Source: Bhargavaea beijingensis
GTDB lineage: Bacteria > Bacillota > Bacilli > Bacillales_A > Planococcaceae
Direction of reading: 5' to 3'
Length of the DNA stretch: 64,000 nt
NCBI RefSeq assembly: GCF_900101985.1
Contig: NZ_FNAR01000001.1
Span: 1 to 64,000 of the forward strand
A program made the translations under genes and the position numbers. Of the stretch, positions 568 to 17,880 are shown in pieces. Position 1 is the first letter of the stretch. Each line of letters starts with the position of its first letter. The notes beneath the pieces are model-generated. The model did not search any database. It was given only the letters and a program-made list of their open reading frames with translations, and had not been told where the DNA came from.

Positions 568-3500
568 ATGAAAAAGAGAAGATATGGCCTGAACTTCTTC
601 AAGCCGGTGGAGAGCTACTCAGGGAACTGGTCGATCCTGGAGGCGAAAAGCCGGGATTGGGAGAACATGTACCGCCAGCGCTGGTCCCATGACAAAGTCG
701 TCAGGACGACGCACGGCGTCAACTGCACCGGTTCCTGCAGCTGGAAGGTGTTCGTCAAAAACGGCGTCATCACTTGGGAAAACCAGCAGATCGATTATCC
801 GTCCTGCGGGCCGGACATGCCGGAGTTCGAGCCGCGCGGCTGTCCCCGGGGGGCCACATTCTCGTGGTATGAGTACAGTCCGCACCGGGTGAAGTACCCG
901 TACATGCGCGGCCGCCTCTGGAAGCTGTGGCGCGAGGCGCTTGCGGAACACAACGGCCATCCGATCGATGCGTGGGCAAGCATCGTCGAGAATCCGGAAA
1001 AGGCGATGAGTTATAAGCGTGTCCGGGGCAAGGGCGGCCTCATCCGCGTCGCCTGGGACGATGCGTTGCAGCTGATTTCGGCGCAGCTGATCTACACAAT
1101 CCGGAAATTCGGCCCGGACCGGATTGCCGGCTTCACCCCGATTCCGGCCATGTCGATGATTTCCTACGCGTCCGGCGCAAGGTTCATCTCACTTCTCGGC
1201 GGGGAGATGCTGTCGTTCTACGATTGGTATGCGGACCTTCCGCCGTCCTCGCCGCAGATCTGGGGCGAGCAGACGGACGTGCCGGAGTCGTCTGATTGGT
1301 ACAACGCGGGCTACCTCATGATGTGGGGCTCGAACGTGCCGCTCACGCGGACACCGGATGCGCATTTCATGACCGAGGTGCGCTACAAGGGGACGAAGGT
1401 CGTTTCGGTCGCGCCGGACCTTGCCGCGAACGTGAAGTTCGCGGACAACTGGCTCGCGCCACACCCGGGCACAGACGCCGCGCTCGCTCAGGCGATGACC
1501 CATGTCATTCTGAGCGAGTTCTACCAGGAACGGAAAGAGAAGATGTTCATCGACTACGCGAAGCAGTACACGGACATGCCATTCATGATCCTGCTCGATC
1601 CGCATGAGGACGCCCTGAAGGCCGGGCGCTTCCTCCGGGCGAGCGATTTCGGCAGCGATACGAAAAACGCCGAGTGGAAACCGGTCATTTTCGACGAGGC
1701 GGGGGGCGAGTTTGTCGTTCCGAACGGGACGATGGGCCAGCGCTGGGAAAAGGACGGCAAGTGGAACCTCATCCTCGACAAGGAGGACGGCACGCGCATC
1801 GAGCCGGCACTGTCCGTCGAGGGCCACGGCGAAGAATGGAAGGAAATCGACTTCCCGTTCTTTGATGACTCCGGCGACGGCACGTTCCGCCGTGTCATCC
1901 CGGCGAGGAAAGTGCGGCTTGCGGACGGCACGGAGCAATACGCGGCGACCGTCTATGACCTGATGATGAGCCAGTACGGCGTGCGCCGGACGGACAGCCC
2001 GTACGACGCAAAAGGTTATGACGACGCAGAATCGCATTACACGCCGGCCTGGCAGGAGCGCATCACCAGTGTCAAGGCCTCGGTCGTGACGCAAATCGCC
2101 CGCGAGTTCGCGCAAAACGCTCTGGACACGGGCGGCCGCTCGATGATCATCATGGGCGCCGGAATCAACCACTGGTTCAACTCCGACACAATCTACCGAT
2201 CGATCCTGAACCTCGTGATCCTCACTGCTTCCCAGGGCGTGAACGGCGGAGGCTGGGCGCACTACGTCGGACAGGAAAAATGCCGGCCGATCGAGGGCTG
2301 GTCGACGCTTGCCTTCGCAAAAGACTGGCAGGGGCCGGCCCGGCTCCAGAACGGGACTTCGTTCTTCTACTTCGGCACCGAACAGTGGCGCTACGAGGAA
2401 GGGGACACCGAATCGCTAAAGTCTCCGCTCGCAGACAAACTGGACTACCGCCACCCGGCCGACTACAACGTCATGGCCGCGCGGCTCGGATGGCTGCCGA
2501 GCTATCCTCAGTTCAACAAAAACAGCCTGCTGTTCGCCGAAGAGGCGGCCCGCGAAGGCAAGACGACAAATGAGGAAATCATCGAACGGGCGGCGGATCA
2601 GATCAAGAGCCGCGAAGTCAAGTTCGCAATCGAGGACCCGGCAGCGCCGGAAAACTTCCCGCGCACGATGTTTGTCTGGCGCTCGAACCTGATCTCAAGC
2701 TCCGCCAAGGGCCAGGAATACTTCATGAAGCACCTGCTCGGCACGGCTGATGCGCTAATGGCGCGGCCGAACGAGGACGTGAAGCCGGAAGAAATCATCT
2801 GGCGCGACGAAGTGGAAGGCAAGCTCGACCTGCTTGTCTCGCTCGACTTCCGGATGACGACGACACCGCTCCACTCGGACATCGTGCTGCCGGCGGCGAC
2901 CTGGTACGAAAAGACCGACCTGTCTTCGACCGACATGCATCCGTTCGTCCACCCGTTCAACCCGGCGGTTAATCCGCTCTGGGAATCCCGTACCGACTGG
3001 GACATTTTCCGCGGGCTGGCAAAGGTGTTCTCAGGGATGGCGGAGACCCATCTGCCGGGCGTCTACAAGGACCTTGTCAGCACGCCGCTGAACCATGACT
3101 CGGAAAGCGAGATTTCCCAGCCGCTTGGCCTTGTCCGCGACTGGGCAAAGGGAGAAGTGGAGGCGGTCGTCGGCAAGACGATGCCGAACCTGAGCATCAT
3201 CGAGCGTGACTACACGAAGATTTACGACAAGTACATCACGCTGGGTCCGAACCTGCAGGTCGGCAAGACCGGCGCGCACGGCGTCAGCTTCTCTGCAGCC
3301 GAAGAATACGAAGAGCTGAAGCGCATCAGCGGTGTCTACCACGACGAGTCGATCAAGAGCGGCCTGCCGAAGCTCGAGACAGCGCGCCAGGCTGCCGACG
3401 CGGTGCTTCATCTGTCGTCCGCGACAAACGGGCGCCTGTCGCAGAAAGCCTACAAGGAAGCGGAAAAGCTTTCCGGCGTGGAGCTGGCCGACATCTCGGC

Positions 3501-4248
3501 GGAACGCGCGGCGGAGCGGATCACATTCCAGAGCATTACCGCACAGCCGCGGGAAGTCATCCCGACTCCGGTATTCAGCGGATCCAACAAGTCCGGGCGC
3601 AGATACTCGCCGTTCACGACGAATATCGAGCGGCTCGTGCCATTCCGGACGCTTACCGGCCGCCAGCACTTCTATATCGACCATGAGATCTTCCTCCAGT
3701 ACGGTGAGGCGCTCCCGGTCTACAAGCCGACGCTTCCGCCGATGGTGTTCGGACCGAGGGACAAGGAAGTGCGGGGCGGCAAGGATTCTCTCGTCCTCAG
3801 GTATCTAACCCCACACGGCAAGTGGAACTTCCACTCCATGTACCAGGATAACCTGCACATGCTGACGCTGTTCCGCGGGGGGCCGGTCGCCTGGATGAAC
3901 AACGAGGAAGCGGCGGAGCACGGCATCTCGGACAATGACTGGATAGAAGTGTATAACCGGAACGGCGCGCTCACTTGCCGGGCGGTCACGAGCCACCGGA
4001 TCCCGCGCGGCACATTGCTCGCCTACCACGCACAGGACCGGCATATCCAGACGCCGGGGTCGGAAATTACGGACACGCGGGGCGGCAGCCATAATGCGCC
4101 GACGCGCATTCACATGAAGCCGACGCAGATGGTCGGCGGCTATGCCCAGCTCAGCTACGGATTCAACTACTACGGGCCGATCGGAAACCAGCGTGACGAA
4201 TACGCCATGATCAGGAAGAAAAGGGAGGTCAACTGGCTTGAAGATTAA
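568..4248 (+). CDS. narG: Respiratory nitrate reductase alpha subunit
   Basis: Catalytic subunit of the membrane-bound nitrate reductase on the cytoplasmic face: it reduces nitrate to nitrite with electrons from quinol via NarI and NarH. The 1226 residues are full length for NarG. The N-terminal iron-sulfur motif is visible (HGVNCTGSCSW, then YPSCGP and RGCPRGA). The segment QTDVPESSDW around residue 230 carries the aspartate that coordinates molybdenum in NarG. The Mo-bis-MGD domains run through the body and the dinucleotide-binding fold fills the last 200 residues. The start ATG has a clear AAAAGGAGTG ribosome site eight bases upstream. It overlaps narH by 11 bases. Confidence 0.97.
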   Translation: MKKRRYGLNFFKPVESYSGNWSILEAKSRDWENMYRQRWSHDKVVRTTHGVNCTGSCSWKVFVKNGVITWENQQIDYPSCGPDMPEFEPRGCPRGATFSWYEYSPHRVKYPYMRGRLWKLWREALAEHNGHPIDAWASIVENPEKAMSYKRVRGKGGLIRVAWDDALQLISAQLIYTIRKFGPDRIAGFTPIPAMSMISYASGARFISLLGGEMLSFYDWYADLPPSSPQIWGEQTDVPESSDWYNAGYLMMWGSNVPLTRTPDAHFMTEVRYKGTKVVSVAPDLAANVKFADNWLAPHPGTDAALAQAMTHVILSEFYQERKEKMFIDYAKQYTDMPFMILLDPHEDALKAGRFLRASDFGSDTKNAEWKPVIFDEAGGEFVVPNGTMGQRWEKDGKWNLILDKEDGTRIEPALSVEGHGEEWKEIDFPFFDDSGDGTFRRVIPARKVRLADGTEQYAATVYDLMMSQYGVRRTDSPYDAKGYDDAESHYTPAWQERITSVKASVVTQIAREFAQNALDTGGRSMIIMGAGINHWFNSDTIYRSILNLVILTASQGVNGGGWAHYVGQEKCRPIEGWSTLAFAKDWQGPARLQNGTSFFYFGTEQWRYEEGDTESLKSPLADKLDYRHPADYNVMAARLGWLPSYPQFNKNSLLFAEEAAREGKTTNEEIIERAADQIKSREVKFAIEDPAAPENFPRTMFVWRSNLISSSAKGQEYFMKHLLGTADALMARPNEDVKPEEIIWRDEVEGKLDLLVSLDFRMTTTPLHSDIVLPAATWYEKTDLSSTDMHPFVHPFNPAVNPLWESRTDWDIFRGLAKVFSGMAETHLPGVYKDLVSTPLNHDSESEISQPLGLVRDWAKGEVEAVVGKTMPNLSIIERDYTKIYDKYITLGPNLQVGKTGAHGVSFSAAEEYEELKRISGVYHDESIKSGLPKLETARQAADAVLHLSSATNGRLSQKAYKEAEKLSGVELADISAERAAERITFQSITAQPREVIPTPVFSGSNKSGRRYSPFTTNIERLVPFRTLTGRQHFYIDHEIFLQYGEALPVYKPTLPPMVFGPRDKEVRGGKDSLVLRYLTPHGKWNFHSMYQDNLHMLTLFRGGPVAWMNNEEAAEHGISDNDWIEVYNRNGALTCRAVTSHRIPRGTLLAYHAQDRHIQTPGSEITDTRGGSHNAPTRIHMKPTQMVGGYAQLSYGFNYYGPIGNQRDEYAMIRKKREVNWLED

Positions 4249-5824
4249 AGCTCAGATTGCAATGGTGATGAACCTGGACAAGTGCATCGGCTGCCATACG
4301 TGCAGCGTCACTTGCAAGACGACGTGGACGAACCGGAAAGGCGCGGAGTACATGTGGTTCAACAACGTGGAGACCAAGCCGGGAATAGGCTATCCGAAGC
4401 GTTGGGAGGACCAGGAAGTGTACAAGGGGGGCTGGCAGCTCCGCAACGGCACACTGGAGCTGAAGTCGGGGAACCGCCTGTCGAAGGTGGCGCTCGGGAA
4501 GATCTTCTACAACCCGGATATGCCGGAGATGCGCGACTTTTACGAGCCGTGGACCTACAACTACGACCATCTCGTCACCGCGGGCGAAGGCGAGCACCCG
4601 CCGGTCGCGCGCGCCTACTCGGCAGTCACGGGCGAGAAGATGGACCTTGAGTGGGGCTCCAACTGGGAGGATGACCTCGCAGGAGCCGATGTGACCGGGC
4701 CGCTGGACCCGAACATTCAGAAAATCGAGGAAGAGATCAAGTTCAACTTCGAGAAGTCGTTCATGATCTATCTGCCAAGGCTTTGCGAGCACTGCCTGAA
4801 CCCGAGCTGCGTGGCCTCCTGTCCGGCAGGCGCAATCTACAAGCGTGACGAGGACGGCATCGTGCTCGTCGACCAGGAAGCATGCCGAAGCTGGCGCTAT
4901 TGCACGACCGGCTGCCCGTACAAGAAGGTCTACTTTAACTGGCAGACGAACAAGGCCGAGAAGTGCACATTCTGCTTCCCGAGAATCGAGGAAGGCCTTC
5001 CGACGGTCTGCTCGGAAACGTGCACCGGCCGGATCCGCTACCTGGGCGTCCTGCTGTATGATGCGGACCGGGTGCTGGAGGCGGCATCTACACCGGACGA
5101 GAAGGACCTGTATCGCGCGCAGTGCGACCTGTTCATGGACCCGCACGACCCGGAAGTGATTGAGCAGGCGCGCCGCGACGGCATCACGGAGGACTGGATC
5201 GAGGCCGCTCAGAACTCGCCGGTCTATAAGCTTGCAATCGAGCACCAGCTTGCATTCCCGCTCCACCCGGAATACCGCACGCTCCCGATGGTCTGGTATG
5301 TTCCGCCGCTTTCGCCGATCATGAACTACTTCGAGGGCAAGGATTCAATCAAGAACCCGGACATGATCTTCCCTGCGATCGATGAAATGCGCACGCCGAT
5401 CCAGTATCTCGCGAACATGCTGACGGCGGGTGACACGGAGACGGTCAAGGGCTCGCTCCAGCGCATGGCGATGATGCGCCAGTACATGCGGGCACTGTCG
5501 TCGGGCAAAGAATTCGACGAGTCGCGGCTTGAGCGGGTCGGGCTCACCGCGCTCCAAACGGAAGAAATGTACCGCCTGCTCGCAATCGCGAAGTACGACG
5601 ACCGATTCGTCATCCCGACTTCCCACAAGGAAAACCGGATGAACACGTACGACATGCAGGGTTCTGCGGGCTTTGGCGGCGACACGATGGGCCTCGGCGC
5701 GATGGGCACCGGCGGCGACGGCTGCGACGGCTGCGGCCCGGCAAGCCCGGGCGCCGGCGTGGCTGCAAAGACCGGAAAGGAGATTTACGAAGAGAACTTC
5801 TACGGGGGAATCTGGCGTGATTGA
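4238..5824 (+). CDS. narH: Respiratory nitrate reductase beta subunit
   Basis: Iron-sulfur electron-transfer subunit (528 residues) linking the NarI hemes to NarG. Cysteine clusters typical of NarH are visible: CIGCHTCSVTC near residue 16, CEHCLNPSCVASCPAG near 183, CRSWRYCTTGCP near 215 (the tryptophan in place of a cysteine marks the 3Fe-4S cluster) and CTFCFPRIEEG..CSETC near 245. The start is TTG at 4238, chosen because AAGGGAGG lies ten bases upstream and the product then begins KIKAQIAMVMNLDKC. A glycine-rich stretch (GFGGDTMGLGAMGTGGDGCDG) near the C-terminus is longer than usual. Confidence 0.96.
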   Translation: MKIKAQIAMVMNLDKCIGCHTCSVTCKTTWTNRKGAEYMWFNNVETKPGIGYPKRWEDQEVYKGGWQLRNGTLELKSGNRLSKVALGKIFYNPDMPEMRDFYEPWTYNYDHLVTAGEGEHPPVARAYSAVTGEKMDLEWGSNWEDDLAGADVTGPLDPNIQKIEEEIKFNFEKSFMIYLPRLCEHCLNPSCVASCPAGAIYKRDEDGIVLVDQEACRSWRYCTTGCPYKKVYFNWQTNKAEKCTFCFPRIEEGLPTVCSETCTGRIRYLGVLLYDADRVLEAASTPDEKDLYRAQCDLFMDPHDPEVIEQARRDGITEDWIEAAQNSPVYKLAIEHQLAFPLHPEYRTLPMVWYVPPLSPIMNYFEGKDSIKNPDMIFPAIDEMRTPIQYLANMLTAGDTETVKGSLQRMAMMRQYMRALSSGKEFDESRLERVGLTALQTEEMYRLLAIAKYDDRFVIPTSHKENRMNTYDMQGSAGFGGDTMGLGAMGTGGDGCDGCGPASPGAGVAAKTGKEIYEENFYGGIWRD

Positions 5825-6383
5825 TAACCGGAAGCTGTATACGTTCAAAGATTCATTCGGATTCTTCGCCAATCAGCTGACGTGGCCGGACAAGCGGAAC
5901 TTCCATCCGGACCACGCCGGGGAGGAGATCGGCCCGGACCATCCGGCGAGGGCCCACGTCCTCCGGTACTGGGAAGAGATCCAAAAATTCAGCCTCGACG
6001 AACTGAGGGAACTATACACCGCGACCTTCGACTTCGAAGAGGACTGTGCGCTGTACATGACCTGGTTCAAGTTCGAGGATGCCCGTGAGCGCGGCCAGAT
6101 GCTCGCGAAGCTGAAGGTGCTCTACGAAATGTACGGCCTCGAGATGCCGGACGAGGAGCTGTCCGACTATCTGCCGATCATGTGCGAGTTCCTGTATGCC
6201 GCCGAGTGGCTGGATGACCCGCGCACGCCCGACAGTTTCCGGATCCTGATGGGGGTCCTTGAAGACGGCACCTACCACCTGATGAAAGCACTCGAGAAGG
6301 AGGAAAGTCCGTATTTCCACCTCATCAAGGGGCTGCGGGAAACATTCAAAGCGTGTTTAGAGGAGGCGCCGGCTCATGGTTGA
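5817..6383 (+). CDS. narJ: Nitrate reductase assembly chaperone NarJ (delta)
   Basis: Cytoplasmic chaperone needed to insert the molybdenum cofactor into NarG; it is not part of the final enzyme. The likely start is GTG at 5817, overlapping the narH stop by eight bases, with GGGGGAA upstream. This gives a 188-residue, acidic, helical protein normal for the NarJ/TorD-like family (FDFEEDCALYMTWFKFEDARERG, then LPIMCEFLYAAEW). The frame is open further upstream, but that part overlaps narH and has no good ribosome site. Confidence 0.93.
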   Translation: MIDNRKLYTFKDSFGFFANQLTWPDKRNFHPDHAGEEIGPDHPARAHVLRYWEEIQKFSLDELRELYTATFDFEEDCALYMTWFKFEDARERGQMLAKLKVLYEMYGLEMPDEELSDYLPIMCEFLYAAEWLDDPRTPDSFRILMGVLEDGTYHLMKALEKEESPYFHLIKGLRETFKACLEEAPAHG

Positions 6384-7056
6384 CCAGTTTTTGTGGGTGA
6401 TATTTCCGTATATCTGCATCGCGATCTTTGTCGTCGGGCATATCTACCGCTATAAAGTGGACAAATTCCACTGGACCGCGAAATCCAGTGAATTCATCGA
6501 GAAAAAGCAGCTGATGGTCGGGAGCCTCCTGTTTCACCTTGGGATCATCCCGGTCATCCTGGGCCATATCTCGGGGCTCGGTATCCCGAAGGAATGGATG
6601 CGGGCTCTCGGCGTCAACGACCATATGTATCACCTCGGCGCCATCTGGATCGGCGGTTTCTTCGGATTCGTCACGCTTCTCGGGATGTTCATTCTGACGT
6701 TCCGCCGGTTTTCGATCAAGGCCGTCCGGAAGCTTAGCTCGGCAAGCGACATGGTCGTCAACACGCTCTTGCTGATCATCGTGTTCATGGGGATGTACGC
6801 GACGATTGTGACGAACGCCGTGAATCCCGCATTCGACTACCGGGATACAATTTCCGTCTGGTTCCGTGACCTGTTCCTTCTGCGGCCAGACCCGTCGTAC
6901 ATGATGGGTGTTCCGGTGTCGTTCCAGATTCATATCCTGGCCGCATTCCTCATTTTCGCGCTTTGGCCGTTCACGCGCCTCGTGCATGTCTGGAGCGTCC
7001 CGCTGTCGTATGTCGGCAGAAGTTACATCCTGTACAGGAGGCACAAGGTGAATTAA
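6376..7056 (+). CDS. narI: Respiratory nitrate reductase gamma subunit (cytochrome b)
   Basis: Membrane diheme subunit of 226 residues that oxidises quinol and passes electrons to NarH. Five hydrophobic helices are visible. Histidines suited to heme ligation sit in helices two and five (LLFHLGIIPVILGHISG near residue 57, and SFQIHILAAF and RLVHVWSVP near the end). ATG at 6376 overlaps narJ by eight bases and has GGAGGCGCC upstream. It is the last gene of the narGHJI block; nreA follows after 51 bases with no terminator, so the sensor genes are probably co-transcribed. Confidence 0.96.
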   Translation: MVDQFLWVIFPYICIAIFVVGHIYRYKVDKFHWTAKSSEFIEKKQLMVGSLLFHLGIIPVILGHISGLGIPKEWMRALGVNDHMYHLGAIWIGGFFGFVTLLGMFILTFRRFSIKAVRKLSSASDMVVNTLLLIIVFMGMYATIVTNAVNPAFDYRDTISVWFRDLFLLRPDPSYMMGVPVSFQIHILAAFLIFALWPFTRLVHVWSVPLSYVGRSYILYRRHKVN

Positions 7057-7107: not shown

Positions 7108-7563
7108 ATGAATGAACCGACAATCTACCAGAATGTGATCGACAGGCTCCGGGAACAGCTCGGTTTCGATTTTATGGCACTGGCGATGGAAGACGCTCCG
7201 AGCGGCTTTTCGGTCCGCTGGCGGGTGGCTTCAGGGAACCTGAACAACCGATACCGCCGGATCGTCCTCCGGTCCGGCAGGGGCATTGCCGGCACCGTTT
7301 TCAAGACGGGAAAGCCGCTGCTCGTGCCGCATGTCGATCCCGGCAGGCATGTGCCCATCGTGCTTGACTATCCGATCGTGAATACCGAAGGGCTGACGAG
7401 CATCGCCGCGGTGCCGCTTTACGACAGCGGCCGCGTAAAAGGCGTCCTGCTGGGCGGCTACCGGGGCGGCCGCGCGGAAATGACGGAAGCGCTTTGCCTG
7501 GAGATGGCAGCAGCATCGGCTTCCGTTCCCGGGTTTGACGGGAAGGAGCTGGTGAGCCGGTGA
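7108..7563 (+). CDS. nreA: Nitrate-binding GAF protein NreA
   Basis: A 151-residue single GAF-domain protein. In staphylococci NreA binds nitrate and controls the kinase NreB, so that the nar genes are induced only when nitrate is present and oxygen is absent. The GAF signature is visible (RSGRGIAGTVFKTGKPLLVPHVDPG near residue 50 and SIAAVPLYDSGRVKGVLLGG near 95). It overlaps nreB by four bases. The placement narGHJI-nreABC-narK matches the staphylococcal nar region, which supports the assignment. Confidence 0.88.
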   Translation: MNEPTIYQNVIDRLREQLGFDFMALAMEDAPSGFSVRWRVASGNLNNRYRRIVLRSGRGIAGTVFKTGKPLLVPHVDPGRHVPIVLDYPIVNTEGLTSIAAVPLYDSGRVKGVLLGGYRGGRAEMTEALCLEMAAASASVPGFDGKELVSR

Positions 7564-8624
7564 GCGTAAAGCAGGACCTGCTGAATGAGCTGATGCTGAA
7601 GATGTTCGACAAAAGCAGCGAAGCCATCCTGTTTTTTGACGGAGAGGGCAGGGCACTTGCCGCGAACCCTGCGGCGGAAAAGATTCTCGACCGCGACGTG
7701 CTGAGGGCGCTTCTCGACGGCAAGGAAGGCGCGCTCTGCCGCGCCTGTGCCGGGTATGTGGATGAGAGCGGCCAGGTGACTTGTGAGAACTGCTATTTCC
7801 ATCACCCGGAGCGCAGCGATTTCACGTCGTTCCAGCTGTACCTGAACACGAAGGGACAGGGCCTTGTGCCATACGCCTCATCCTTCCATACCGTCGATGC
7901 GGAAAATGACATCCGGGTATTCATGCTGCGCGACATGACACGGCAGCAGCGAATGCAGGAAAAGGCTTATCAGAACAAAATGATGAAGCATATCATCGAC
8001 GCACAGGAAAACGAGCGCAGAAGGATTTCCCGGGAACTTCACGACGGGGTCGCACAGGAGCTCATGAGCGCGGTCGTCGACCTCCGTGTTCTCAAGTACA
8101 TGACGGGTGACGCGGATGTGCTCGCCAAGGTGAAAGAAACCGAGGCATCGTTGTCGAGGCTCCTGGAAGATATCCGGAATCTGTCAGTTGAGCTGCGCCC
8201 GGCCGCCCTTGACGATCTTGGCCTCGATGCGGCGTTCCGCTCGCATTTCAAGCGTCTTGAAGAAATGTTCGGCCTCCTTGTTGACTACACATCCGACCTG
8301 CCGGTGAAGCGGTATGAAAACGAAATTGAGACGGTCGTCTACCGGGTATGCCAGGAGGCCATCCTGAACGCAATCAAGTACGCGGATGTGGACACGGTGT
8401 CGGTCACGCTTAAAGGTGAAGGGAGCCGGCTGCTTCTGACGGTCCGCGATTCAGGCACAGGGTTCACTCCGGGGGATCAGCCTCAGGGAACGGGACTCGG
8501 ACTGTACGGCATGAAAGAGCGCGCGGAACTGGTCGGCGGCACGCTTGAGGTGGAGGCTGCTCCGGGCGCCGGCACGACAATCCGGCTGAGCGTTCCGGCG
8601 TTGCCGAGAAGGGAGGCCCGCTGA
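7560..8624 (+). CDS. nreB: Oxygen-sensing histidine kinase NreB
   Basis: Cytoplasmic histidine kinase of 354 residues that phosphorylates NreC under anaerobic conditions. Residues 60-80 contain C-X2-C-X11-C-X2-C (CRAC ... CENC), exactly the four-cysteine spacing that holds the oxygen-labile 4Fe-4S cluster of staphylococcal NreB, set within a PAS-like domain. The HisKA_3 dimerisation helix has [14 protein letters not shown], with the phospho-accepting histidine near residue 161. The ATPase domain follows ([11 protein letters not shown] and [13 protein letters not shown]). No membrane segment is present. The start is GTG overlapping nreA; nreC begins at its stop codon. Confidence 0.94.
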
Positions 8625-9280
8625 TGGATAAGGTGTCAATTGTCATTGCGGACGACCACGCCGTCGTCCGGAGCGGCTTCTCGATGATCCTTAACTTCCA
8701 GAAAGACATGGAGGTTGTTGCGACGGCGGCAGACGGCCTTGAAGCCTATAAGATGGTCGCGAGGCACCAGCCCGATCTTCTGATCATGGACCTCAGTATG
8801 CCGCCGGGGGAAAACGGGCTGATTGCGACCGGCAAGATCAAAGAGGACTTCCCGGACACGAAAATCCTGATTTTGACGATGCACGACGACGAGGAGTATC
8901 TGTTCAACGTCCTGAAAAGCGGCGCGTCCGGATACATGCTGAAAAATGCGCCGGATGAGGAGCTGCTGCACGCCATCCGGACGATCCGGCGCGGCGGCAC
9001 ATACATCCACCCGAAGATGGCGACCTCACTCGTGCGCGAATTTGTCAAAGCCGACCCTGCCACGGCGCCGGACGACCCATACGAACTCCTGTCCAAGCGT
9101 GAGCTGGAGATTCTCCCGCTTGTCGCCAAAGGATACCGCAACAAGGAAATTGCCGAAATGCTCTACATCTCCGTCAAGACCGTGGAGGCGCACAAAGCGA
9201 AGATCATGGAGAAGCTGGGCCTGAAAAGCCGCCCGGAACTCGTGGAATTCGCCCTCAGGAAAAAGTTGCTGAACTTCTGA
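8624..9280 (+). CDS. nreC: Response regulator NreC (NarL/LuxR type)
   Basis: DNA-binding response regulator of 218 residues that activates nitrate respiration genes when phosphorylated by NreB. The receiver domain has the acidic pair ([11 protein letters not shown]) and the phospho-acceptor aspartate in [15 protein letters not shown] near residue 54, followed by the conserved lysine ([13 protein letters not shown]). The C-terminal LuxR-type helix-turn-helix reads [23 protein letters not shown] near residue 150. Likely targets in this window are the narG and narK promoters, which share a TAGG/CAGG-N6-CCTAAT element. Confidence 0.94.
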
Positions 9281-9402: not shown

Positions 9403-9930
9403 ATGGCAAACGGACAGCTGCAGTTTACGGAGCCGGCGGTGAGGCTCCTGGAAAACGAACACCGCTACCTCATGCACCTCGCGGAGGAATGGCACGCCAT
9501 CGTCCTCCGGTTCGAACGGGAAGAAGACATGGACCGGGCAACGGCGCTTGCCCTTCTTAACGAACTGAAAGCGAAACTCGTCGAATTCCTCGACCCGCTG
9601 AAAAACCATACCGACAAGGAAGAAGAACATTTCTTCCCTGTCCTCGGAAGCTATATCGGCTTTGAGCAAGGGCCGATTGTCGGCATCCAGGAAGAGCACG
9701 GGGAGATCGACGCCTATATCGGACACTTTTTCCACCACACGCGCGGTGATCTCTCGGAACTGACCCTGGACCAGATCAGAAAAATTGTCGGCGATGCCGG
9801 TGAGGCGTTTGAGGTGATCACGGTCCATTTCGTGAAGGAGGAGACGGTCCTATTCCCGATGGCCGAGCGGCTGCTCCGGGCGGACGATCTTGACGCGCTC
9901 GCCGAAAAACTGAACACGCTTATCGTCTGA
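9403..9930 (+). CDS. Hemerythrin HHE-domain protein
   Basis: A 175-residue cytoplasmic four-helix protein with histidines and glutamates spaced as in hemerythrin-like di-iron proteins: ENEHRYL (residue 18), HTDKEEEHFFPVL (66), EEHGEID (91) and VHFVKEETVLFP (143). Such proteins bind O2 or NO or help repair iron centres (ScdA/YtfE group). Its place between nreC and narK suggests protection against the nitric oxide or oxygen met during nitrate respiration; that role is inferred. The ribosome site CAGGAGG is clear, and a terminator follows directly. Confidence 0.85.
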   Translation: MANGQLQFTEPAVRLLENEHRYLMHLAEEWHAIVLRFEREEDMDRATALALLNELKAKLVEFLDPLKNHTDKEEEHFFPVLGSYIGFEQGPIVGIQEEHGEIDAYIGHFFHHTRGDLSELTLDQIRKIVGDAGEAFEVITVHFVKEETVLFPMAERLLRADDLDALAEKLNTLIV

Positions 9931-9998: not shown

Positions 9999-10042
9999 CA
10001 GGGAAGCCCCTAATTAACCGCGCAAGAGCAGGCATTTAAAAT
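9999..10042 (+). promoter_or_regulatory. Candidate narK promoter with NreC-like operator
   Basis: CAGG-N6-CCTAAT followed after exactly 22 bp by TAAAAT (10037-10042). The element and its spacing match the region upstream of narG, so both promoters are probably under the same activator, most likely NreC. There is no recognisable -35 hexamer; the element occupies that position. Confidence 0.45.
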
Positions 10043-10113
10043 AGAATTATAGAAAATGATGTCGATAAACTTGCAGCACCTGCAGTCAAAACTCTATCGA
10101 GTAGGTGAAACAG

Positions 10114-11631
10114 ATGATCAAGAAGATTCAGTTGCCGCTCCAGACGGCAAACCTCGTGGTCGGTTTCATGGTATGGGTGATTTTGTCTTCGCTTATTTCA
10201 TTTATCACGCAGGACATCAGTGTGCCGCCGGAGCGCCTGGCGATTGTCACCGCAGTGCCGGTCGTGCTCGGCTCGATCTTGCGCATGCCGTTCGGCTACT
10301 ACGCCAACTTTGTCGGCGCGCGCACCCTGTTCATGTGGAGCTTCATTCTCCTGCTGTTCCCGGTCTGGTACATCAGTGAGGCGGACACTTTCACGGATTT
10401 GATCGTCGGCGGCCTGATCCTCGGCGTCGGCGGTGCAGTGTTCTCTGTCGGGGTCACTTCGCTGCCGAAGTACTATCCGAAGGAAAAGCACGGACTCGTC
10501 AACGGGATCTACGGGGCGGGGAACATCGGGACGGCGATCACGACCTTCGCCGCGCCGATTATCGCCGGCCAGATCGGCTGGCAGCCGACGGTCAAGCTGT
10601 TCCTCATCCTGCTGGCCGCATTCGCCCTTCTGAACTTCTTTTTCGGTGACCGCAATGAACCGAAGCCGGACGTCCGGCTGTCGATGTTCGAGCAGATCAA
10701 AGGGATATCGGGCAATCCGAAGCTCTGGCTGTTCTCACTGTTTTACTTCATCACGTTCGGCTCGTTTGTCGCCTTCACCGTGTACTTGCCGAACTTCCTC
10801 GTCGGGAATTTCGGGCTTGACAGCGTGGATGCCGGCATCCGGACGGCGATCTTCATCGCGGTCGCGACATTCCTGCGTCCGGTCGGCGGCTTATTGGCCG
10901 ACAAGTTCCAGCCGATGTTCCTGCTGATCGCGACGTTCTCCGTCTACACGGTCGCGGCAATCATCCTGGCGTTCTCGCCGTCGATCGGACTGTACACGGT
11001 CGGCAGCATCGCCATTGCCATCAGTGCAGGGATCGGCAACGGGGTCATCTTCAAGCTTGTGCCGTTCTACTTCGCCAAACAGGCGGGGATCGCCAACGGT
11101 TTCGTTTCGATGATGGGCGGCCTGGGCGGATTTTTCCCTCCGATCCTCCTCTCGATCATCTATTCGATGACCGGTGCCTATTCGATCGGATTCATGCTGT
11201 TGTCCCAGGTGGCGCTCGCCAGCCTCATCCTGGTCGTCTGGCTGTACTACTCTGACCGGCTGTCGCTGCAGGCGGAAGTATTCCGCTCGACCGGCCAGGG
11301 CGTGCTCGTGACGGATGCCGGCGGCAAAATCCGTGCGGTCAACCCGATGTTCACGAAGCTGACGGGGTATACGGAAGAAGAGGCGCTCGGCAACAATCCG
11401 AACATGCTGTCTTCCGGCCGTCAGCCGCAGGAATTTTACAGGAACATGTGGAAGCAGATAAAAGAAGAAGGCATGTGGCAGGGTGAAATCTGGAACAGGA
11501 AAAAGAACGGGGAAGAGTACCTGCAATGGCTGAACATCGCGGCCGTCAGAGACGAGACCGGCGAACATGTGCGCTATGTGGGAACCTTCAGCGACATCAC
11601 GAAAGAACACGGACAGAATTTCCGGCGATGA
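10114..11631 (+). CDS. narK: NarK-type nitrate/nitrite transporter fused to a C-terminal PAS domain
   Basis: Residues 1-385 form a 12-helix major facilitator of the NarK family that moves nitrate in and nitrite out. The family signature regions are visible (GGAVFSVGVTSLPKYYPKEKHG near residue 110, GNIGTAITTFAAP near 135, GIGNGVIFKLVPFYF near 310). The last 115 residues are an added PAS/PAC domain (STGQGVLVTDAGGKIRAVN, LTGYTEEEALGNNPN, RDETGEHVRYVGTFSDITKE). NarK proteins normally end near 400 residues, so this 505-residue fusion is unusual. The domain would face the cytoplasm. The start ATG 10114 follows GTAGGTG; GTG 10105 is the alternative. Confidence 0.9.
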   Translation: MIKKIQLPLQTANLVVGFMVWVILSSLISFITQDISVPPERLAIVTAVPVVLGSILRMPFGYYANFVGARTLFMWSFILLLFPVWYISEADTFTDLIVGGLILGVGGAVFSVGVTSLPKYYPKEKHGLVNGIYGAGNIGTAITTFAAPIIAGQIGWQPTVKLFLILLAAFALLNFFFGDRNEPKPDVRLSMFEQIKGISGNPKLWLFSLFYFITFGSFVAFTVYLPNFLVGNFGLDSVDAGIRTAIFIAVATFLRPVGGLLADKFQPMFLLIATFSVYTVAAIILAFSPSIGLYTVGSIAIAISAGIGNGVIFKLVPFYFAKQAGIANGFVSMMGGLGGFFPPILLSIIYSMTGAYSIGFMLLSQVALASLILVVWLYYSDRLSLQAEVFRSTGQGVLVTDAGGKIRAVNPMFTKLTGYTEEEALGNNPNMLSSGRQPQEFYRNMWKQIKEEGMWQGEIWNRKKNGEEYLQWLNIAAVRDETGEHVRYVGTFSDITKEHGQNFRR

Positions 11632-11664: not shown

Positions 11665-12684
11665 GTGGACGGACGGTATTCGAGGCAGACATTATTCGGG
11701 CCGATAGGGGAAAGCGGACAGGAGCGCATGGCGTCGGCCAAAGTGACGGTCATCGGCTGCGGCGCGCTCGGCACCGCCATCGCCGAAACGCTCGTGCGGG
11801 CCGGCATCGGGGAACTCATCCTGGTCGACCGCGACTATGTTGAGCTTTCCAACCTTCAGCGCCAGACGCTGTTCACCGAGGCGGACGCCGCGGATATGCT
11901 CCCGAAAGTAATCGCCGCAAAAAAGCATCTGACGGAGATCCGGAGCGGTGCCGCCATCCGGACGTATCTCGTCAACGCCGACGGGTCGCTGATGGAGACC
12001 CTCGCGTCGGAAAGCGATCTGATCATGGACGCGACGGACAACTTCGAGACCCGCCTCCTCATCAATGACGCTGCACACAAACACGGCATCCCGTGGATCC
12101 ACGGGGCGTGCGTCCGTGGCTCGGGGACGGTCTATCCGTTTATCCCGGGCCGCGGCGCGTGCTACCGCTGCCTGCTGCCGATGATGCCCGCCACGGGTGC
12201 GACATGCGACACGGCGGGCATCATCCCGCCGGCCGTATCCGCAACAGCCGCGATCCAATGCGCGGAAGCGATGAAATGGCTGACCGGAAACGCAGCGGCC
12301 CTGCGTACAAAAGTGCATCATTTCGACTTGTGGGAAGGCACGCATCTGGATATCGGCGTTTCCCGGATCCGCGACCCGGAGTGCGCCACCTGCGGCAAGT
12401 CGCCGGCGTTCCCGGAGCTGGGTCCCCGGCGGGCAGGGGACGCCGCGGTTCTGTGCGGACGTGATGCTGTTCAGATTCTCCCCGGTCCGGAACGCGCCGT
12501 GTCTCCGGATATCGGTGAGGAAATCGGGCGCCGGCTTGATCCGGACGCCCGCCGGACGCCATATTTTACAGAATTTCGGGCTTTCGGCCGCCGGTTTGTC
12601 CTGTTCAGGGACGGCCGGCTGCTGATCCATGGTGCCCGGACGGCGGATGAGGGGAGAACCCTGTATCACCGCCTGTTCGGCTGA
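11665..12684 (+). CDS. moeB: MoeB/ThiF-family adenylyltransferase
   Basis: E1-like enzyme of 339 residues that adenylates the C-terminal glycine of the sulfur-carrier MoaD so it can receive sulfur for molybdopterin synthesis. Visible features are the nucleotide-binding loop GCGALGTAIAETLVRAG (residue 33), DRDYVELSNLQRQ, the zinc cysteine pairs (CYRCLLP near 173 and CATCGKS near 248) and the catalytic-cysteine segment GATCDTAGIIPP near 183. About 80 extra residues follow the second zinc pair. The start is GTG. ThiF (thiamine) is an alternative role, but the Moco neighbours favour MoeB. Confidence 0.87.
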   Translation: MDGRYSRQTLFGPIGESGQERMASAKVTVIGCGALGTAIAETLVRAGIGELILVDRDYVELSNLQRQTLFTEADAADMLPKVIAAKKHLTEIRSGAAIRTYLVNADGSLMETLASESDLIMDATDNFETRLLINDAAHKHGIPWIHGACVRGSGTVYPFIPGRGACYRCLLPMMPATGATCDTAGIIPPAVSATAAIQCAEAMKWLTGNAAALRTKVHHFDLWEGTHLDIGVSRIRDPECATCGKSPAFPELGPRRAGDAAVLCGRDAVQILPGPERAVSPDIGEEIGRRLDPDARRTPYFTEFRAFGRRFVLFRDGRLLIHGARTADEGRTLYHRLFG

Positions 12685-12702
12685 AGGAAAGGGGGAAGCC
12701 TG

Positions 12703-13197
12703 TTGGCACACGGACAAGAACCGAATGAGATCAGGATTGCGATTCTTACGGTGAGCGATACGAGGACAGAAGACAACGATACCGGAGGTGCGCTTATTGA
12801 GCACTTCGCGGAACTTGCCGGCCTGGCTGTTGCCGGCCGCGGGTGGGTGGCGGATGACACCGGAAAAATCCGCAACGTAGTGACCGCGGTGCTCGCCGAC
12901 CCGGACATCGACGCCATCATCACGACGGGCGGCACCGGCATCGCCGAGCGCGACGTCACGATCGAGGCGATCCGCCCGCTTTTGTCCAAGGAACTCGACG
13001 GCTTCGGCGAACTGTTCCGCTACTTGAGCTTCGCCGAAGATGTCGGCACGAAAGCGATGCTGAGCCGGGCCGCCGCCGGCACCGCCCAGGGAAAGGCGGT
13101 CTTTATCCTTCCGGGCTCGCGCGGCGCAGTCCGCCTCGCCATGGAGCGCCTCATCATTCCGGAAATCCGCCATGTTGTAGCGGAGCTGAGGAAATAG
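12703..13197 (+). CDS. moaB: Molybdopterin adenylyltransferase-like protein MoaB
   Basis: A 164-residue MogA/MoaB-family protein, which activates molybdopterin by adenylation before molybdenum insertion by MoeA. The family signature is plain: ILTVSDTR near residue 15, TGGTGIAERDVTIEAIRPL near 73 and SRAAAGTAQGKAVFILPGSRGAVRLAME near the end. The start is TTG at 12703, with AAAGGGGGAAG upstream. It lies 18 bases after moeB in the same orientation, so the two are probably co-transcribed with narK. Confidence 0.9.
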   Translation: MAHGQEPNEIRIAILTVSDTRTEDNDTGGALIEHFAELAGLAVAGRGWVADDTGKIRNVVTAVLADPDIDAIITTGGTGIAERDVTIEAIRPLLSKELDGFGELFRYLSFAEDVGTKAMLSRAAAGTAQGKAVFILPGSRGAVRLAMERLIIPEIRHVVAELRK

Positions 13198-13273
13198 GGA
13201 CGAAGGTGAAGCGGCCTGATTACTTAACGTCCGGGAATCGGACTTATACAGCCGGGCGTGATGTTCCGGCACT

Positions 13274-13297
13274 AAAAAACCGCCCTATCAGGCGGTT
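13274..13297 (-). terminator. Terminator of moaC (minus strand)
   Basis: AACCGCC pairs with GGCGGTT; read on the minus strand the stem is followed by six T residues. On the plus strand no T-run follows, so it serves moaC. Confidence 0.8.
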
Positions 13298-13312
13298 CCG
13301 TTCAAACACCAC

Positions 13313-13801
13313 TTAATCTCTTTTGTAATCCCCCGACTTGCCGCCGGTTTTCTCCAGCAGCATCGTCGGGCCGATGATCATTTCCTTGCCGGCGGCCTTG
13401 CACATGTCATAGATGGTGAGGGCGGCGGCGGAGGCGGCCGTGAGGGCTTCCATTTCAACGCCGGTCTGGCCTTTCGTCCTGACGCTCGCTTCGAGGAGCA
13501 CTTCATAATGCCCGGCTTCCTCGTCAATGTTCCATTCAAATGAGATGTCGATGCCCTTCAGCGGGAGCGGGTGGCACATCGGGATGATCTGCGGTGTGTT
13601 TTTTGCCGCCATGATGCCGGCAACCTGGGCGACGGCGAACACATCGCCTTTCTTGTTCGTTCCTTCGCTGATCTGGCGGTGGATGGTTTCATTCACCAGA
13701 ATGGAAGATTTGGCGGTGGCGGTTCGGACAGTCTCGGCTTTATCAGAAACATCGACCATGCGGGCGCGGCCCTGGTCATTGAAGTGAGTGAGTTCAGACA
13801 T
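13313..13801 (-). CDS. moaC: Cyclic pyranopterin monophosphate synthase MoaC
   Basis: Cytoplasmic enzyme (162 residues, usual length) that works with MoaA to turn GTP into cyclic pyranopterin monophosphate, the first step of molybdenum cofactor synthesis. Typical segments are [15 protein letters not shown] at the N-terminus, [13 protein letters not shown] near residue 75 and [24 protein letters not shown] near 120, holding the active-site residues. The ribosome site AAGGAG sits eight bases before the ATG. It is the only Moco gene here on the minus strand and diverges from moeA across a 69-base gap. Confidence 0.95.
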
Positions 13802-13870
13802 GTGAATTCTCCTTCCGGCGGATTGTAATCAGTGTAAATCGAGTATAGCAGATGCAAACAGGAGGCGGTC

Positions 13871-15118
13871 ATGATGGTGGAAATTCGGAAACCGATACAG
13901 GTCGCAGAGGCGGTGGAGCGGGTGCTCGCGCACGCGGTTCCGGCTGGTACGGAAACAGTCCCGCTTGAGGAAAGCGCCGGCCGGATTCTGGCCAGTCCGG
14001 TGACCGCTTCCCATCCGGTGCCGCCGTTTGACCGGTCGCCGTATGACGGGTTCGCGATTCGTTCGGAAGATACCGCAGGCGCATCCGGCAGTAGCCGGAT
14101 TCCATTCACTGTCATCGATGAAATCCCCGCAGGGAGCGTTTCGAATAAGATACTCGGCGAAAAACAGGCCGTCCGCATCATGACCGGCGCGCCGCTTCCG
14201 GAAGGGGCGGACGCGGTCGTCATGTTCGAGCAGACGGTGGAGGACGGGGACACATTCTCGATCCGAAAGCCGTTCAAGCCGCTCGAGAACGTCTCGCTGA
14301 AAGGCGAGGATCTGGCGGAAGGCGAGGAAGTCGTCCCTGCCGGAAGCTTCATCCACGCGGGAACGGTCGCTGTGCTCGCGACGTTCGGCTATACGCAGGT
14401 CAAGGTCGCCAGGCGCCCGGTCGTCGGGATTCTCGCCACCGGCACCGAACTGGTCGGCGTCGGCGATCCGCTTGTACCCGGCAAGATCCGAAACAGCAAC
14501 GGCCCGATGATCGCGGCCCAGCTGCGCCGGATGGGCATTGATTGCCGGACATACGGCGCACAGGCAGATGACCCGGATGCCGTTGTCGCAACGGTGGAGC
14601 GGGCGCTTTCCGAGACGGACGCCCTCATCACGACCGGCGGGGTATCGGTCGGCGACTTCGACTATCTGCCGGCTGTCTACGGGCGGATCGGCGCGGAAGT
14701 GCTGTTCAACAAAGTCGCGATGCGGCCGGGCAGCGTGACCACGGTCGCCGCGGGCGGCGGCAAGCTGCTGTTCGGGCTGTCGGGCAATCCATCGTCCTGC
14801 TTTACCGGCTTCGAACTGTTTGTACGTCCGGCGCTTCTCAAGATGATGGGTGCAAACAAGCTGTTTTTGCCGCATACGAAAGCGGTGCTCGGCGAAGATT
14901 TTACGAAAGCAAACCCGTTTACCCGCTTTGTCCGCGCTGTGTATGACGGTAAAACTGCATCGCCCGCCGGCTTCAACAAGTCCAACGCGGTGTCTTCGAT
15001 CGCCCGCGGCAACGCGATGATCGTGCTGCCCGGCGGCACGCGCGGGTTCAGGAAAGGCGACGAAGTCGATGTCCTGCTGCTCGGCGTCGAGGAAGGCAGC
15101 GCCCAGTGGATACTGTAA
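13871..15118 (+). CDS. moeA: Molybdopterin molybdenumtransferase MoeA
   Basis: Inserts molybdate into adenylated molybdopterin to form the cofactor. The 415 residues carry the family marks PPFDRSPYDGFAIRSEDT near residue 57, RIMTGAPLPEGADAVVMFEQ near 105, LATGTELV near 193, TTGGVSVGDFDYLP near 256 and FGLSGNPSSCFTGFELFVRP near 302. It begins the block moeA-mobB-moaE-moaD-mobA-moaA, whose members overlap or nearly touch, consistent with one operon. The ribosome site AGGAGGCGG precedes the ATG. Confidence 0.95.
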   Translation: MMVEIRKPIQVAEAVERVLAHAVPAGTETVPLEESAGRILASPVTASHPVPPFDRSPYDGFAIRSEDTAGASGSSRIPFTVIDEIPAGSVSNKILGEKQAVRIMTGAPLPEGADAVVMFEQTVEDGDTFSIRKPFKPLENVSLKGEDLAEGEEVVPAGSFIHAGTVAVLATFGYTQVKVARRPVVGILATGTELVGVGDPLVPGKIRNSNGPMIAAQLRRMGIDCRTYGAQADDPDAVVATVERALSETDALITTGGVSVGDFDYLPAVYGRIGAEVLFNKVAMRPGSVTTVAAGGGKLLFGLSGNPSSCFTGFELFVRPALLKMMGANKLFLPHTKAVLGEDFTKANPFTRFVRAVYDGKTASPAGFNKSNAVSSIARGNAMIVLPGGTRGFRKGDEVDVLLLGVEEGSAQWIL

Positions 15119-15630
15119 GGGTGCTTCAGGTCGCCGGGTTCAAAAACAGCGGCAAGACGACAATGATCCGGGCGCTGATCGCGGAAGCCGCGTGCCGCGG
15201 ATTCCGTACGGCCACGGTCAAGCATCACGGCCACGGCGGAACGCCGGCTCTGCCGGATCAGGAAACAGACAGCATGCAGTTTTTCGGGGACGGGGCGGCA
15301 GCTTCCGCCGTGTCTGGCGGCGGGGTCATCCAGCTTCATTTGAGAGAAGCGGAGACCGGTCCTCTTCCGTTGATCCGTCTGGCGGCCGCAGCCCGGCCGG
15401 ACCTTGTCCTCGTCGAGGGGTTCAAACAGGAGCCGTTCGAGAAAATCGTTCTTCTGCGGAGCGGGGAGGACTGGCAACAGCTGAAAGGCCTGCCGGGCAT
15501 CCGGCTCGCCGTCACGGCTGGAACGGACGCGCCCGGCGCACCGGAAATCATTGCAAGGGAAGACAAAGAAGCCATCCGCGGCTGGTTCGGCCGCTGGCTA
15601 AAAGGGGGGACGGGTGATGTCCATCTATGA
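15106..15630 (+). CDS. mobB: Molybdopterin-guanine dinucleotide biosynthesis adaptor MobB
   Basis: GTP-binding adaptor of 174 residues thought to assist MobA in forming the bis-MGD cofactor used by NarG. The P-loop VAGFKNSGKTTMIRAL starts near residue 7, followed by VKHHGHGG near 36 and LVLVEGFKQEPFEKIV near 101, typical of MobB. The start is GTG at 15106 inside the end of moeA (13-base overlap), with GAGGAAGG nine bases upstream. The downstream end overlaps moaE. Confidence 0.92.
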   Translation: MDTVRVLQVAGFKNSGKTTMIRALIAEAACRGFRTATVKHHGHGGTPALPDQETDSMQFFGDGAAASAVSGGGVIQLHLREAETGPLPLIRLAAAARPDLVLVEGFKQEPFEKIVLLRSGEDWQQLKGLPGIRLAVTAGTDAPGAPEIIAREDKEAIRGWFGRWLKGGTGDVHL

Positions 15631-16057
15631 AATTACCGATAAGCCGATCGACCCGCAGCGCTATGCGGACCATGTTCTCCGTCCCGAGGCAGGGGCGGTC
15701 GTCACATTCACCGGCCATGTCCGCGAGTGGACAAAGGGCATCCGGACGCTTTACCTGAGCTACGAAGCGTACGTGCCGATGGCGGAAAAGAAAATGGCAC
15801 AGATCGGCCGGGAGATCGGAGAGAAGTGGGAAGGGACGCGCATCGCGATTGCCCACCGGATCGGCGAGCTGGACGTGGGCGAAGTTGCCGTCGTCATCGC
15901 CGTTTCCTCGCCCCACCGGAAAGCCGCTTACGAGGCCAACGAATATGCCATCGAACGCATTAAGCAGGATGTGCCGATCTGGAAAAAGGAAATCTGGGAA
16001 ACAGGCGAGCAGTGGATCGGCGACCAAAACAAAAAACCGGAGGTGCGCAATCCATGA
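15617..16057 (+). CDS. moaE: Molybdopterin synthase catalytic subunit MoaE
   Basis: Large subunit of molybdopterin synthase: it transfers sulfur from MoaD thiocarboxylate to cyclic pyranopterin monophosphate. The 146 residues show the MoaE pattern GAVVTFTGHVREWTKG near residue 28, LSYEAYVPMAEKKM, IAHRIGELDVGEVAVVIAVSSPHR near 80 and VPIWKKEIWETGEQWI near the end. ATG 15617 is preferred over GTG 15614 because of the spacing to AAAGGGGGG. It ends in ATGA overlap with moaD, as expected for translationally coupled partners. Confidence 0.95.
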   Translation: MSIYEITDKPIDPQRYADHVLRPEAGAVVTFTGHVREWTKGIRTLYLSYEAYVPMAEKKMAQIGREIGEKWEGTRIAIAHRIGELDVGEVAVVIAVSSPHRKAAYEANEYAIERIKQDVPIWKKEIWETGEQWIGDQNKKPEVRNP

Positions 16058-16287
16058 TCAAACTTTTATATTTCGCGGGCATCCGTGATCTGACGGGTGT
16101 CCCGGAGGAACAGGCTCCACTTGCCGGCAGGACGGTCGGAGAACTGATGGAATGGGCCGAGGACAAGTACCCGGGCATCCGCGAAGGCGGCGCACGTGTT
16201 GCGGTCAATGAAGAATATGCTCTTGACGGGGACGTTCTCACAGAAGGGGACACAGCGGCGTTTATCCCGCCGGTCAGCGGCGGCTGA
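16054..16287 (+). CDS. moaD: Molybdopterin synthase sulfur carrier MoaD
   Basis: Ubiquitin-like small subunit (77 residues) of molybdopterin synthase. It ends in the required Gly-Gly (PPVSGG), whose terminal carboxylate is adenylated by MoeB and loaded with sulfur. It starts with IKLLYFAGIRDLTG, typical of MoaD. The ATG overlaps the moaE stop (ATGA), and its own stop overlaps the mobA start by one base. Confidence 0.95.
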   Translation: MIKLLYFAGIRDLTGVPEEQAPLAGRTVGELMEWAEDKYPGIREGGARVAVNEEYALDGDVLTEGDTAAFIPPVSGG

Positions 16288-16847
16288 TGACGACGGGAAT
16301 TGTCCTTGCGGGCGGCCTGTCCAGGCGGTTCGGCTCGCCGAAGGCCTTTGCGGAACGGGATGGCCGGCTGTTCTGGGAGCTGGCGCATGATGCGCTCCTG
16401 GACGGCGGCTGTGATCATGTCATCATCTCTGCCCGGCCGGAGCATTTGGGACGGTACGGCGGGGCAGACGCCATTACGGACCATCCGGAGGTTGCCGGAG
16501 CCGGCCCGCTTGCCGGCATCTTTACGGCGATGAAGCTGCGGCAGTCGGATGAATTCGCCGTCCTGCCGTGCGACATGCCCGGCATCGGACCGATGGAAGT
16601 GCGCAAGCTCATTGCGCTGGCCGATGAGGACGCAGACGTGACCGCCGTCCGTACGAAAGACCAGCCGATCCCGCTGTTCAGCGTCTGGAACGGGGCGCTT
16701 GCGGATCTGATCGGTGAAGCACTTGCGCGCGGCGAGCGCGGCGTCATGCCGTTTCTCGCCTCTGTGGAGACGGAGTGGATCGATGCGCGGGAACTGAATC
16801 CGGACCTTTCCGTATTCAGCAACATGAACAGACCGAACGAGCATTAA
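16287..16847 (+). CDS. mobA: Molybdenum cofactor guanylyltransferase MobA
   Basis: Attaches GMP to the molybdenum cofactor to give the guanine dinucleotide form required by NarG. The nucleotidyltransferase signature [18 protein letters not shown] is at residue 4, [18 protein letters not shown] near 63 and [11 protein letters not shown] near 91. The 186 residues are normal for the family. It lies within the Moco operon and is followed by moaA after 16 bases. Confidence 0.94.
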
Positions 16848-16863
16848 GAAGGAGGAAGCGAAC

Positions 16864-17880
16864 ATGACCCGACAACCTTTGACCGACCGGTTCGGGCGGC
16901 CGATCCGTGATCTGCGGATTTCCGTCACCGACCGCTGCAACTTCAGATGTTCCTATTGCATGCCGAAAGAGGTATTCGGGGATGACTACGTTTTCCTCCC
17001 GAAGTCTGAGCTGCTCACCTTCGAGGAGATCCACCGGCTGACACGCCTGTTTGCGGACGCCGGCGTGAAGAAGATCCGCCTGACCGGCGGCGAACCGCTG
17101 ATGCGGCGGGGGCTTCCCGACCTTGTGGAGCGGATCCTGTCCGTCGGCGGAATCGAAGACATCGGCCTCACGACAAACGGGCTGCTGCTCGGCGCGCATG
17201 CCCGGCCGCTTTACGACGCGGGCCTGCGCCGTCTGAACATCAGCCTTGATGCACTCGATCCGGTCATTTCCGGTAAGCTGAACGGCCGCGGCGTCGATCC
17301 TGCGCGCATACTGAAACAGATTGACTACGCCAAAGAAGTAGGATTTGACATCAAAGTGAACATGGTCGTGAAAAAAGGTGTCAACGACTCGGAAATCCTG
17401 CCGATGACCGCTTATTTCAAGGAACGCGGCATCACGCTCCGGTTTATCGAATTCATGGATGTCGGCAACGACAACGGCTGGAGCTTCAGGGACGTCGTCA
17501 CGAAACAGGAGATCTTCGAACGGCTCAGCGGGGTATACGACCTTGAGCCGGTCGGGCAGGACTACTACGGCGAAGTCGCCAAGCGCTACCGCCACCGGGA
17601 CAGCGGAGCGGAAATCGGCTTTATCACTTCGGTGTCGGAGTCGTTCTGTTCCACATGCACCCGCGCCCGCCTGTCATCAGACGGCAAGCTGATCACCTGC
17701 CTGTTCGCAGAAGGCGGATTCGACCTCCGCGGCCTGATCCGGGACGGAGCGACCGATGAAGAACTCATGGCCGCCATCGCGGGAGTCTGGGAAAACCGCG
17801 CCGACCGCTACTCCGACGAACGCACCGAACAGACCGCGCGCAACCGGAAGAAAATCGGCATGTCGTATATCGGCGGCTGA
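16864..17880 (+). CDS. moaA: GTP 3',8-cyclase MoaA (radical SAM)
   Basis: Radical SAM enzyme of 338 residues that, with MoaC, makes the pterin precursor from GTP. The N-terminal cluster motif is [12 protein letters not shown] (CX3CX2C, residue 20). The glycine-rich SAM contact [11 protein letters not shown] is near 76. The second cluster is formed by [20 protein letters not shown] near 260. The protein ends in SYIGG, carrying the C-terminal double glycine characteristic of MoaA. AAGAAGGAGGAAG gives a strong ribosome site. It is the last gene of the Moco operon, closed by a strong terminator. Confidence 0.96.

Follow-up and report, generated by a model that had tools for sequence, protein, structure and literature searches.

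Organization of the Locus

The window, that is, the whole stretch of 64,000 nucleotides of Bhargavaea beijingensis DNA that was analysed, contains in this order narGHJI, nreA, nreB, nreC, a hemerythrin-like gene, narK-PAS and the molybdenum cofactor genes (Table 1). The narK-PAS frame is uninterrupted from its ATG to the stop codon, and a ribosome-binding site (AGGTG) lies 5' of the ATG at approximately 10103–10107. A start at the in-frame GTG at 10105 would give a product of 508 aa; the homologue alignments and the PAS tree were built on this GTG form, and the residue numbers quoted here are those of the 505-aa ATG form. The product matched the Pfam families MFS_1 (residues 14–316) and PAS_9 (residues 395–497), both over the cut-offs, and the view of an earlier sequence-only reading that NarK and a PAS domain are joined in one protein is thereby confirmed.

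The nreABC genes lie in the neighbourhood of narK-PAS in the window and in most relatives, and the molybdenum cofactor genes keep the same order in many relatives. The nreB product carries the motif CxxC-x11-CxxC. The NreA-like GAF protein (7108–7563) scored 121.7 bits, below the NCBIfam cut-off of 175 for NreA. The hemerythrin-like gene, which sits between nreC and narK, occurred close to narK in 48 of the 120 related loci that were scanned, and its product shows weak similarity to the Fe-S repair proteins RIC/YtfE.

A terminator-like hairpin (AAAAGCCGC...GCGGCTTTTTT, 9935–9970) is located past the hemerythrin gene; since it precedes narK-PAS, a separate promoter for this gene is possible. 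The hairpin was not listed by the automatic terminator scan, probably because the loop exceeds the permitted length. The palindrome upstream of narK differs by one mismatch from TAGGGN4CCCTA, which we take to be the NreC-site consensus of the S. carnosus literature. Alone, the match in the window was not significant. Among 80 related loci, matches with at most two mismatches were present in 45, versus 6.4 expected from shuffles; they were mostly placed 84–128 bp upstream, in many nre-containing relatives. To judge from these upstream sequences, the transcription of narK-PAS is probably under NreC.

Table 1. Position of the genes, domains and sites described at the nar locus of the window.
Feature	Position	Strand	Basis
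narGHJI respiratory nitrate reductase operon	568..7056	+	narG TIGR01580, 1816 bits; ORFs
nreA (GAF), nreB (Fe-S-type sensor kinase), nreC (response regulator)	7108..9280	+	Pfam/NCBIfam
Hemerythrin-like (HHE) protein	9403..9930	+	PF01814, E 7.7e-13
Palindrome CAGGGAAGCCCCTA, NreC-site-like	9999..10012	+	Upstream of narK; one mismatch to TAGGGN4CCCTA
narK-PAS fusion gene	10114..11631	+	505 aa; single open frame, ribosome-binding site, MFS_1 + PAS_9, 150 homologues
NarK-type MFS transporter domain, residues 1–375	10114..11238	+	MFS_1; structural matches NarK/NarU; invariant signatures
Continuous helix, residues 357–392, TM12 into PAS N-cap	11182..11289	+	AlphaFold2 model
PAS domain, NifL-like, residues 396–497	11299..11604	+	PAS_9; PAS model; NifL FAD-PAS 2gj3 fold match
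W446, F-alpha tryptophan, equivalent of Aer W70 / NifL W87	11449..11451	+	134/134 sequences
N461, equivalent of Aer N85 / NifL N102	11494..11496	+	134/134 sequences
Molybdenum cofactor genes (moeB ... moaA)	11665..17880	+	ORFs, ThiF domain

Distribution and History of the Fusion

The fusion and its conservation were clearly established. Full-length fused homologues numbered 150 across the class Bacilli, 134 of them distinct, and the fusion with the same junction was present in six of the eight genomes of the genus, 81 of 261 genomes of the family, about 65 of the 398 genomes sampled class-wide, and at least 80 named loci. Named carriers among the matches listed were Planococcus, Sporosarcina, Paenibacillus, Cytobacillus, Shouchella, Halobacillus, Virgibacillus, Metabacillus and Salimicrobium. 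Among 299 genomes sampled from the phylum (Bacillota alone), full-length fusions were found only in the class Bacilli. Throughout the family, the genomes with narG were the same as those with the fusion (81/81) and none of the remaining 180 had either, counts that refer to related genomes and not to independent events.

Such fusions had been considered rare on the sequence alone, which is wrong within this lineage, where the transporter is normally fused in most of the sampled Bacilli that bear narG. The suspicion that a sequencing error had joined the frames of two genes is ruled out by the identical junction in many homologues; because they carry the same junction, chance is excluded as well. 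The search for relatives, suggested together with that suspicion, retrieved the fusion at the levels of genus, family and class.

The phylogeny of the transporter part placed the fused proteins in a single clade together with the nearest unfused relatives. Nested inside this clade were members lacking the PAS (G584, G298, one of the three copies of G388, and G410/G478), and loss after one fusion is therefore the simplest reading; according to this topology, a single joining of transporter and PAS probably took place, and the PAS was later lost several times. A Staphylococcus-like group (f9, naming inferred) of PAS-less proteins of 388–398 aa, accompanied by nreABC, branches near the base of the clade, a position that fits gain or loss alike.

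The fused domains formed one group in the PAS tree (SH-aLRT 94); the kinase PAS domains grouped separately, with MmoS, and hence no recent PAS swap is indicated. A recent origin of the fused domain as a copy from the neighbouring PAS-PAS histidine kinase of Cytobacillus and relatives was rejected on the basis of these separate groups. Pairwise distances of the transporter and PAS parts correlated (Spearman 0.77, non-independent pairs), and the mean p-distance was 0.40 for the PAS versus 0.26 for the transporter. Among the genes of the Bhargavaea group, the dN/dS of the PAS was 0.03–0.16, similar to that of the transporter, and both parts are, as judged from these ratios, under purifying selection. 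The fusion is ancient and has been kept in many soil and marine Bacilli.

The fusion also persists in loci without NreB in reach, such as narGHJI-narK loci and loci with the order narK, response regulator, GAF, PAS-PAS histidine kinase. Downstream of narK-PAS, Cytobacillus, Halobacillus and their relatives encode a response regulator, an NreA-like GAF protein and a PAS-PAS-HisKA_3 kinase (L194:13431-15155, L192:13327-15051, L185:13312-15027, L190:13614-15338 and L092:9943-11421). From their residue pattern, these loci apparently encode an Nre-like system in which a flavin PAS, with the Aer/MmoS FAD set H/W/N/R, replaces the Fe-S PAS of NreB.

Transporter Part and Junction

The top Foldseek matches of the transporter were E. 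coli NarK (4u4w/4jre) and NarU (4iu8). R57, R255 and the motif GxGNxGTA were invariant among the 134 distinct fused sequences, and by their position we take the two arginines to be the equivalents of E. coli R89 and R305. The score against TIGR00886 was 193 bits, below the curated cut-off of 311.7, and for this reason the protein is placed in a divergent NarT/NarK-type branch and not assigned as a member of TIGR00886. It resembles the NarT/NarK transporters (MFS, NNP type) in fold, arginines, GxGNxGTA motif and occurrence in nar loci, but differs from them in the extra C-terminal PAS and in this low score; the unfused Staphylococcus-like NarT/NarK members are about 55% identical to it and belong to the same clade. 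Given the nar gene context, the product is expected to transport nitrate and nitrite.

The AlphaFold2 model, based on 70 sequences, had a mean pLDDT of 83.5 and showed residues 357–392 as one helix and the first PAS strand from residue 396. The boundary drawn earlier, with NarK ending at residue 385 and the last 115 residues forming the PAS, was thus close; in the model, the helix formed by TM12 and the N-cap extends to 392. A block of 22 residues at the junction contained no indels across the 134 distinct sequences, in which the protein ends shortly past the PAS (tail mostly of 4–17 aa) and has no output domain. NarK proteins, with twelve transmembrane helices, have a cytoplasmic C-terminus; the PAS should accordingly be on the cytoplasmic side, just past TM12. 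Being at the end of the protein, rigidly joined to TM12 and devoid of an output domain, the PAS would act most simply on the transporter itself. A regulatory role of the PAS on transport is likely, and the earlier proposal that it takes part in gating transport is supported.

PAS Domain and Its Putative Cofactor

The PAS_9 match had an E-value of 1.4e-16 and 61 bits (Pfam cut-off 27). The model of the PAS alone reached a pLDDT of 90.4, and its best fold match was the FAD-PAS of NifL (2gj3), with a TM-score of 0.89 by target length and an rmsd of 1.1; LOV structures were also among the fold matches. By sequence, the nearest solved relatives were MmoS (3ewk) and NifL. In profile searches, the NifL and DibA-type PAS profiles matched, the DibA-type being the best PAS profile with 143 bits.

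In FAD-binding PAS domains, the F-alpha Trp is the primary determinant of FAD binding and an Asn or His is the second (PMC10468136), and AxDGC2 and RmcA require the corresponding Asn both to bind FAD and to respond to redox state (PMC12540587). The fused PAS has W446 and, at the second place, N461; His is absent there. The equivalent of NifL Y110 was Tyr in 126 and Phe in eight of the 134 sequences. On the other hand, PAS2 of PA0285, with the same Trp and Asn, bound no FAD in vitro (PMC10874727), and the positions of NifL E70 and H133 hold P429 and F492, the position of S39 also being different in the sequence alignment. The domain is therefore termed NifL-like and not a NifL-type pocket, since the hydrogen-bond network of S39, E70 and H133 is not kept. 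The pocket His and Arg of Aer/MmoS are likewise absent, P429 and F492 being at those places.

When the four positions were read out with the same profile, NarK-PAS showed P/W/N/F, the YtvA-like LOV domain of the source genome C/R/N/Q and the Cytobacillus kinase PAS H/W/N/R. The LOV and Aer/MmoS-type domains thus showed the residue sets reported for each, which supports the alignment register. Other PAS domains of the source genome were compared as search matches, most of which aligned only partly. No conserved His or Cys was found in the fused PAS of the 134 sequences, and the position of the LOV cysteine was Pro in 133 of them. These comparisons with known domains speak, on balance, for a fused PAS that binds FAD.

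Proposed Redox Control and Alternative Explanations

A block of respiratory nitrate uptake by oxygen was recognised as early as the 1980s, and hypoxic nitrate transporters are reported to be subject in general to an oxygen or redox block; in Mycobacterium tuberculosis NarK2, the block acts at the transporter, tracks the redox state of the cell and not O2, and is one for which no mechanism is known (PMC3445494). We propose that a flavin redox switch in the fused PAS gates nitrate uptake, a proposal to which we give nearly an even chance. The C-terminal cytoplasmic PAS would bind FAD through W446 and N461, as in NifL, Aer, AxDGC2 and RmcA. With plentiful electron acceptors such as oxygen, the flavin would be oxidised and, through the PAS, the rigid TM12/N-cap helix would be fixed so that the transport cycle is slowed or stopped; in a reduced cell, the flavin would be reduced and the transporter released for nitrate import. 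The polarity, with the oxidised state as off, is a guess from physiology. NreABC would then set the amount of transporter, and the PAS would determine whether the transporter works, as a fast added layer. The fuller statement, that NarK-PAS is an FAD-PAS redox switch shutting nitrate uptake in many Bacilli when oxygen is available and constitutes a first molecular mechanism for the oxygen inhibition, is offered more tentatively. In any case, the PAS is not the general mechanism, because M. tuberculosis NarK2 is controlled by oxygen with no PAS reported and PAS-less members of the clade exist.

The PAS could instead be a cofactor-free module for docking or dimerisation that holds NarK by, for example, the nitrate reductase, or stabilises a NarK dimer, its Trp and Asn being structural. 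Many PAS domains serve as dimerisation modules, the above-mentioned PAS2 of PA0285 bound no FAD in vitro despite the same Trp and Asn (PMC10874727), and the FAD pocket is conserved only in part; however, W446 and N461 are invariant in all 134 sequences, within a PAS that is as a whole more variable than the transporter, and we regard this explanation as rather unlikely. Sensing of another small molecule, such as nitrate, nitrite or a metabolite, in a feedback control on transport is improbable: PAS pockets accept many ligands and the flavin-tuning pocket residues of NifL and Aer differ in narK-PAS, but the nearest structures bind flavin. Among the signals put forward by the sequence-only reading, redox is the best supported, with the NifL FAD-PAS as nearest fold and W446 and N461 invariant, whereas heme finds no support. 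Heme, Fe-S and LOV (blue-light) sensing are all known PAS cofactor types and LOV structures are among the fold matches, yet the absence of a conserved His or Cys, together with the Pro at the LOV cysteine position, makes these chemistries highly improbable, and they were rejected.

The same reading had also suggested that NarK becomes, by virtue of its PAS, a receptor signalling to NreA/NreB, an idea favoured by the neighbouring nreABC genes but now weakened to the point of being very doubtful. The fusion occurs without NreB in reach (e.g., L087, L089, L090, L094, L095, L121 and L175), Staphylococcus-like loci keep nreABC and yet have no PAS, and the protein has no output domain. The view that the fusion is an artefact of sequencing or assembly, or that the PAS is a neutral passenger, has nothing in its favour except the oddity of the fusion, and is refuted by the 150 homologues, the dN/dS well below 1 and the indel-free junction.

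Comparison with Known Systems

Fusions of MFS transporters with a C-terminal PAS, an arrangement shared by narK-PAS, are already known as a class, and NarK-PAS is a variant within it; PMC10710835, citing Willson et al. 2019, mentions the class without a tested function. Within the open-access literature covered, no description of NarK-PAS was found. M. tuberculosis NarK2 is a respiratory nitrate transporter under post-translational redox control, and no PAS is mentioned for it in that source (PMC3445494). NifL PAS1 (2gj3), a redox sensor with FAD, has the closest fold and the same Trp and Asn, and mostly the same Tyr, but it is attached to a regulator, whereas the PAS described here is attached to a transporter and lacks equivalents of S39, E70 and H133. 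The AxDGC2, RmcA and DibA-type PAS domains of c-di-GMP enzymes share with it the PAS profile (DibA) and the Asn; their output is an enzyme domain, of which narK-PAS has none. YajR (3wdo), a solved MFS transporter, was among the Foldseek matches. It has a soluble C-terminal domain after TM12, which is not a PAS.

A transporter with a flavin-type PAS of its own, together with natural PAS-less relatives as controls, renders the proposed mechanism directly testable in harmless Bacilli. If true, this would be, to our knowledge, a first case of a secondary transporter gated by redox through a PAS sensor; it would separate the transcriptional (NreABC) from the post-translational control of nitrate respiration, and would have a bearing on denitrification and nitrite release in soils.

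Additional copies were observed in some genomes. Bhargavaea cecembensis (G003; L152; L017:1495-2214) has a second, truncated narK-PAS of 240 aa, extending from the later transmembrane helices to the PAS and located approximately 6 kb from the intact copy; moeB, mog and moeA are also duplicated, which corresponds to a partial tandem duplication. The narK-PAS of G003, which has the genus code of the source genome of the window, was identical in the tree to that of B. cecembensis. Genome G388 (L092:6362-13744, L093:8456-9712) has three transporter paralogues, two with and one without the PAS, and thus offers a natural comparison within one cell.
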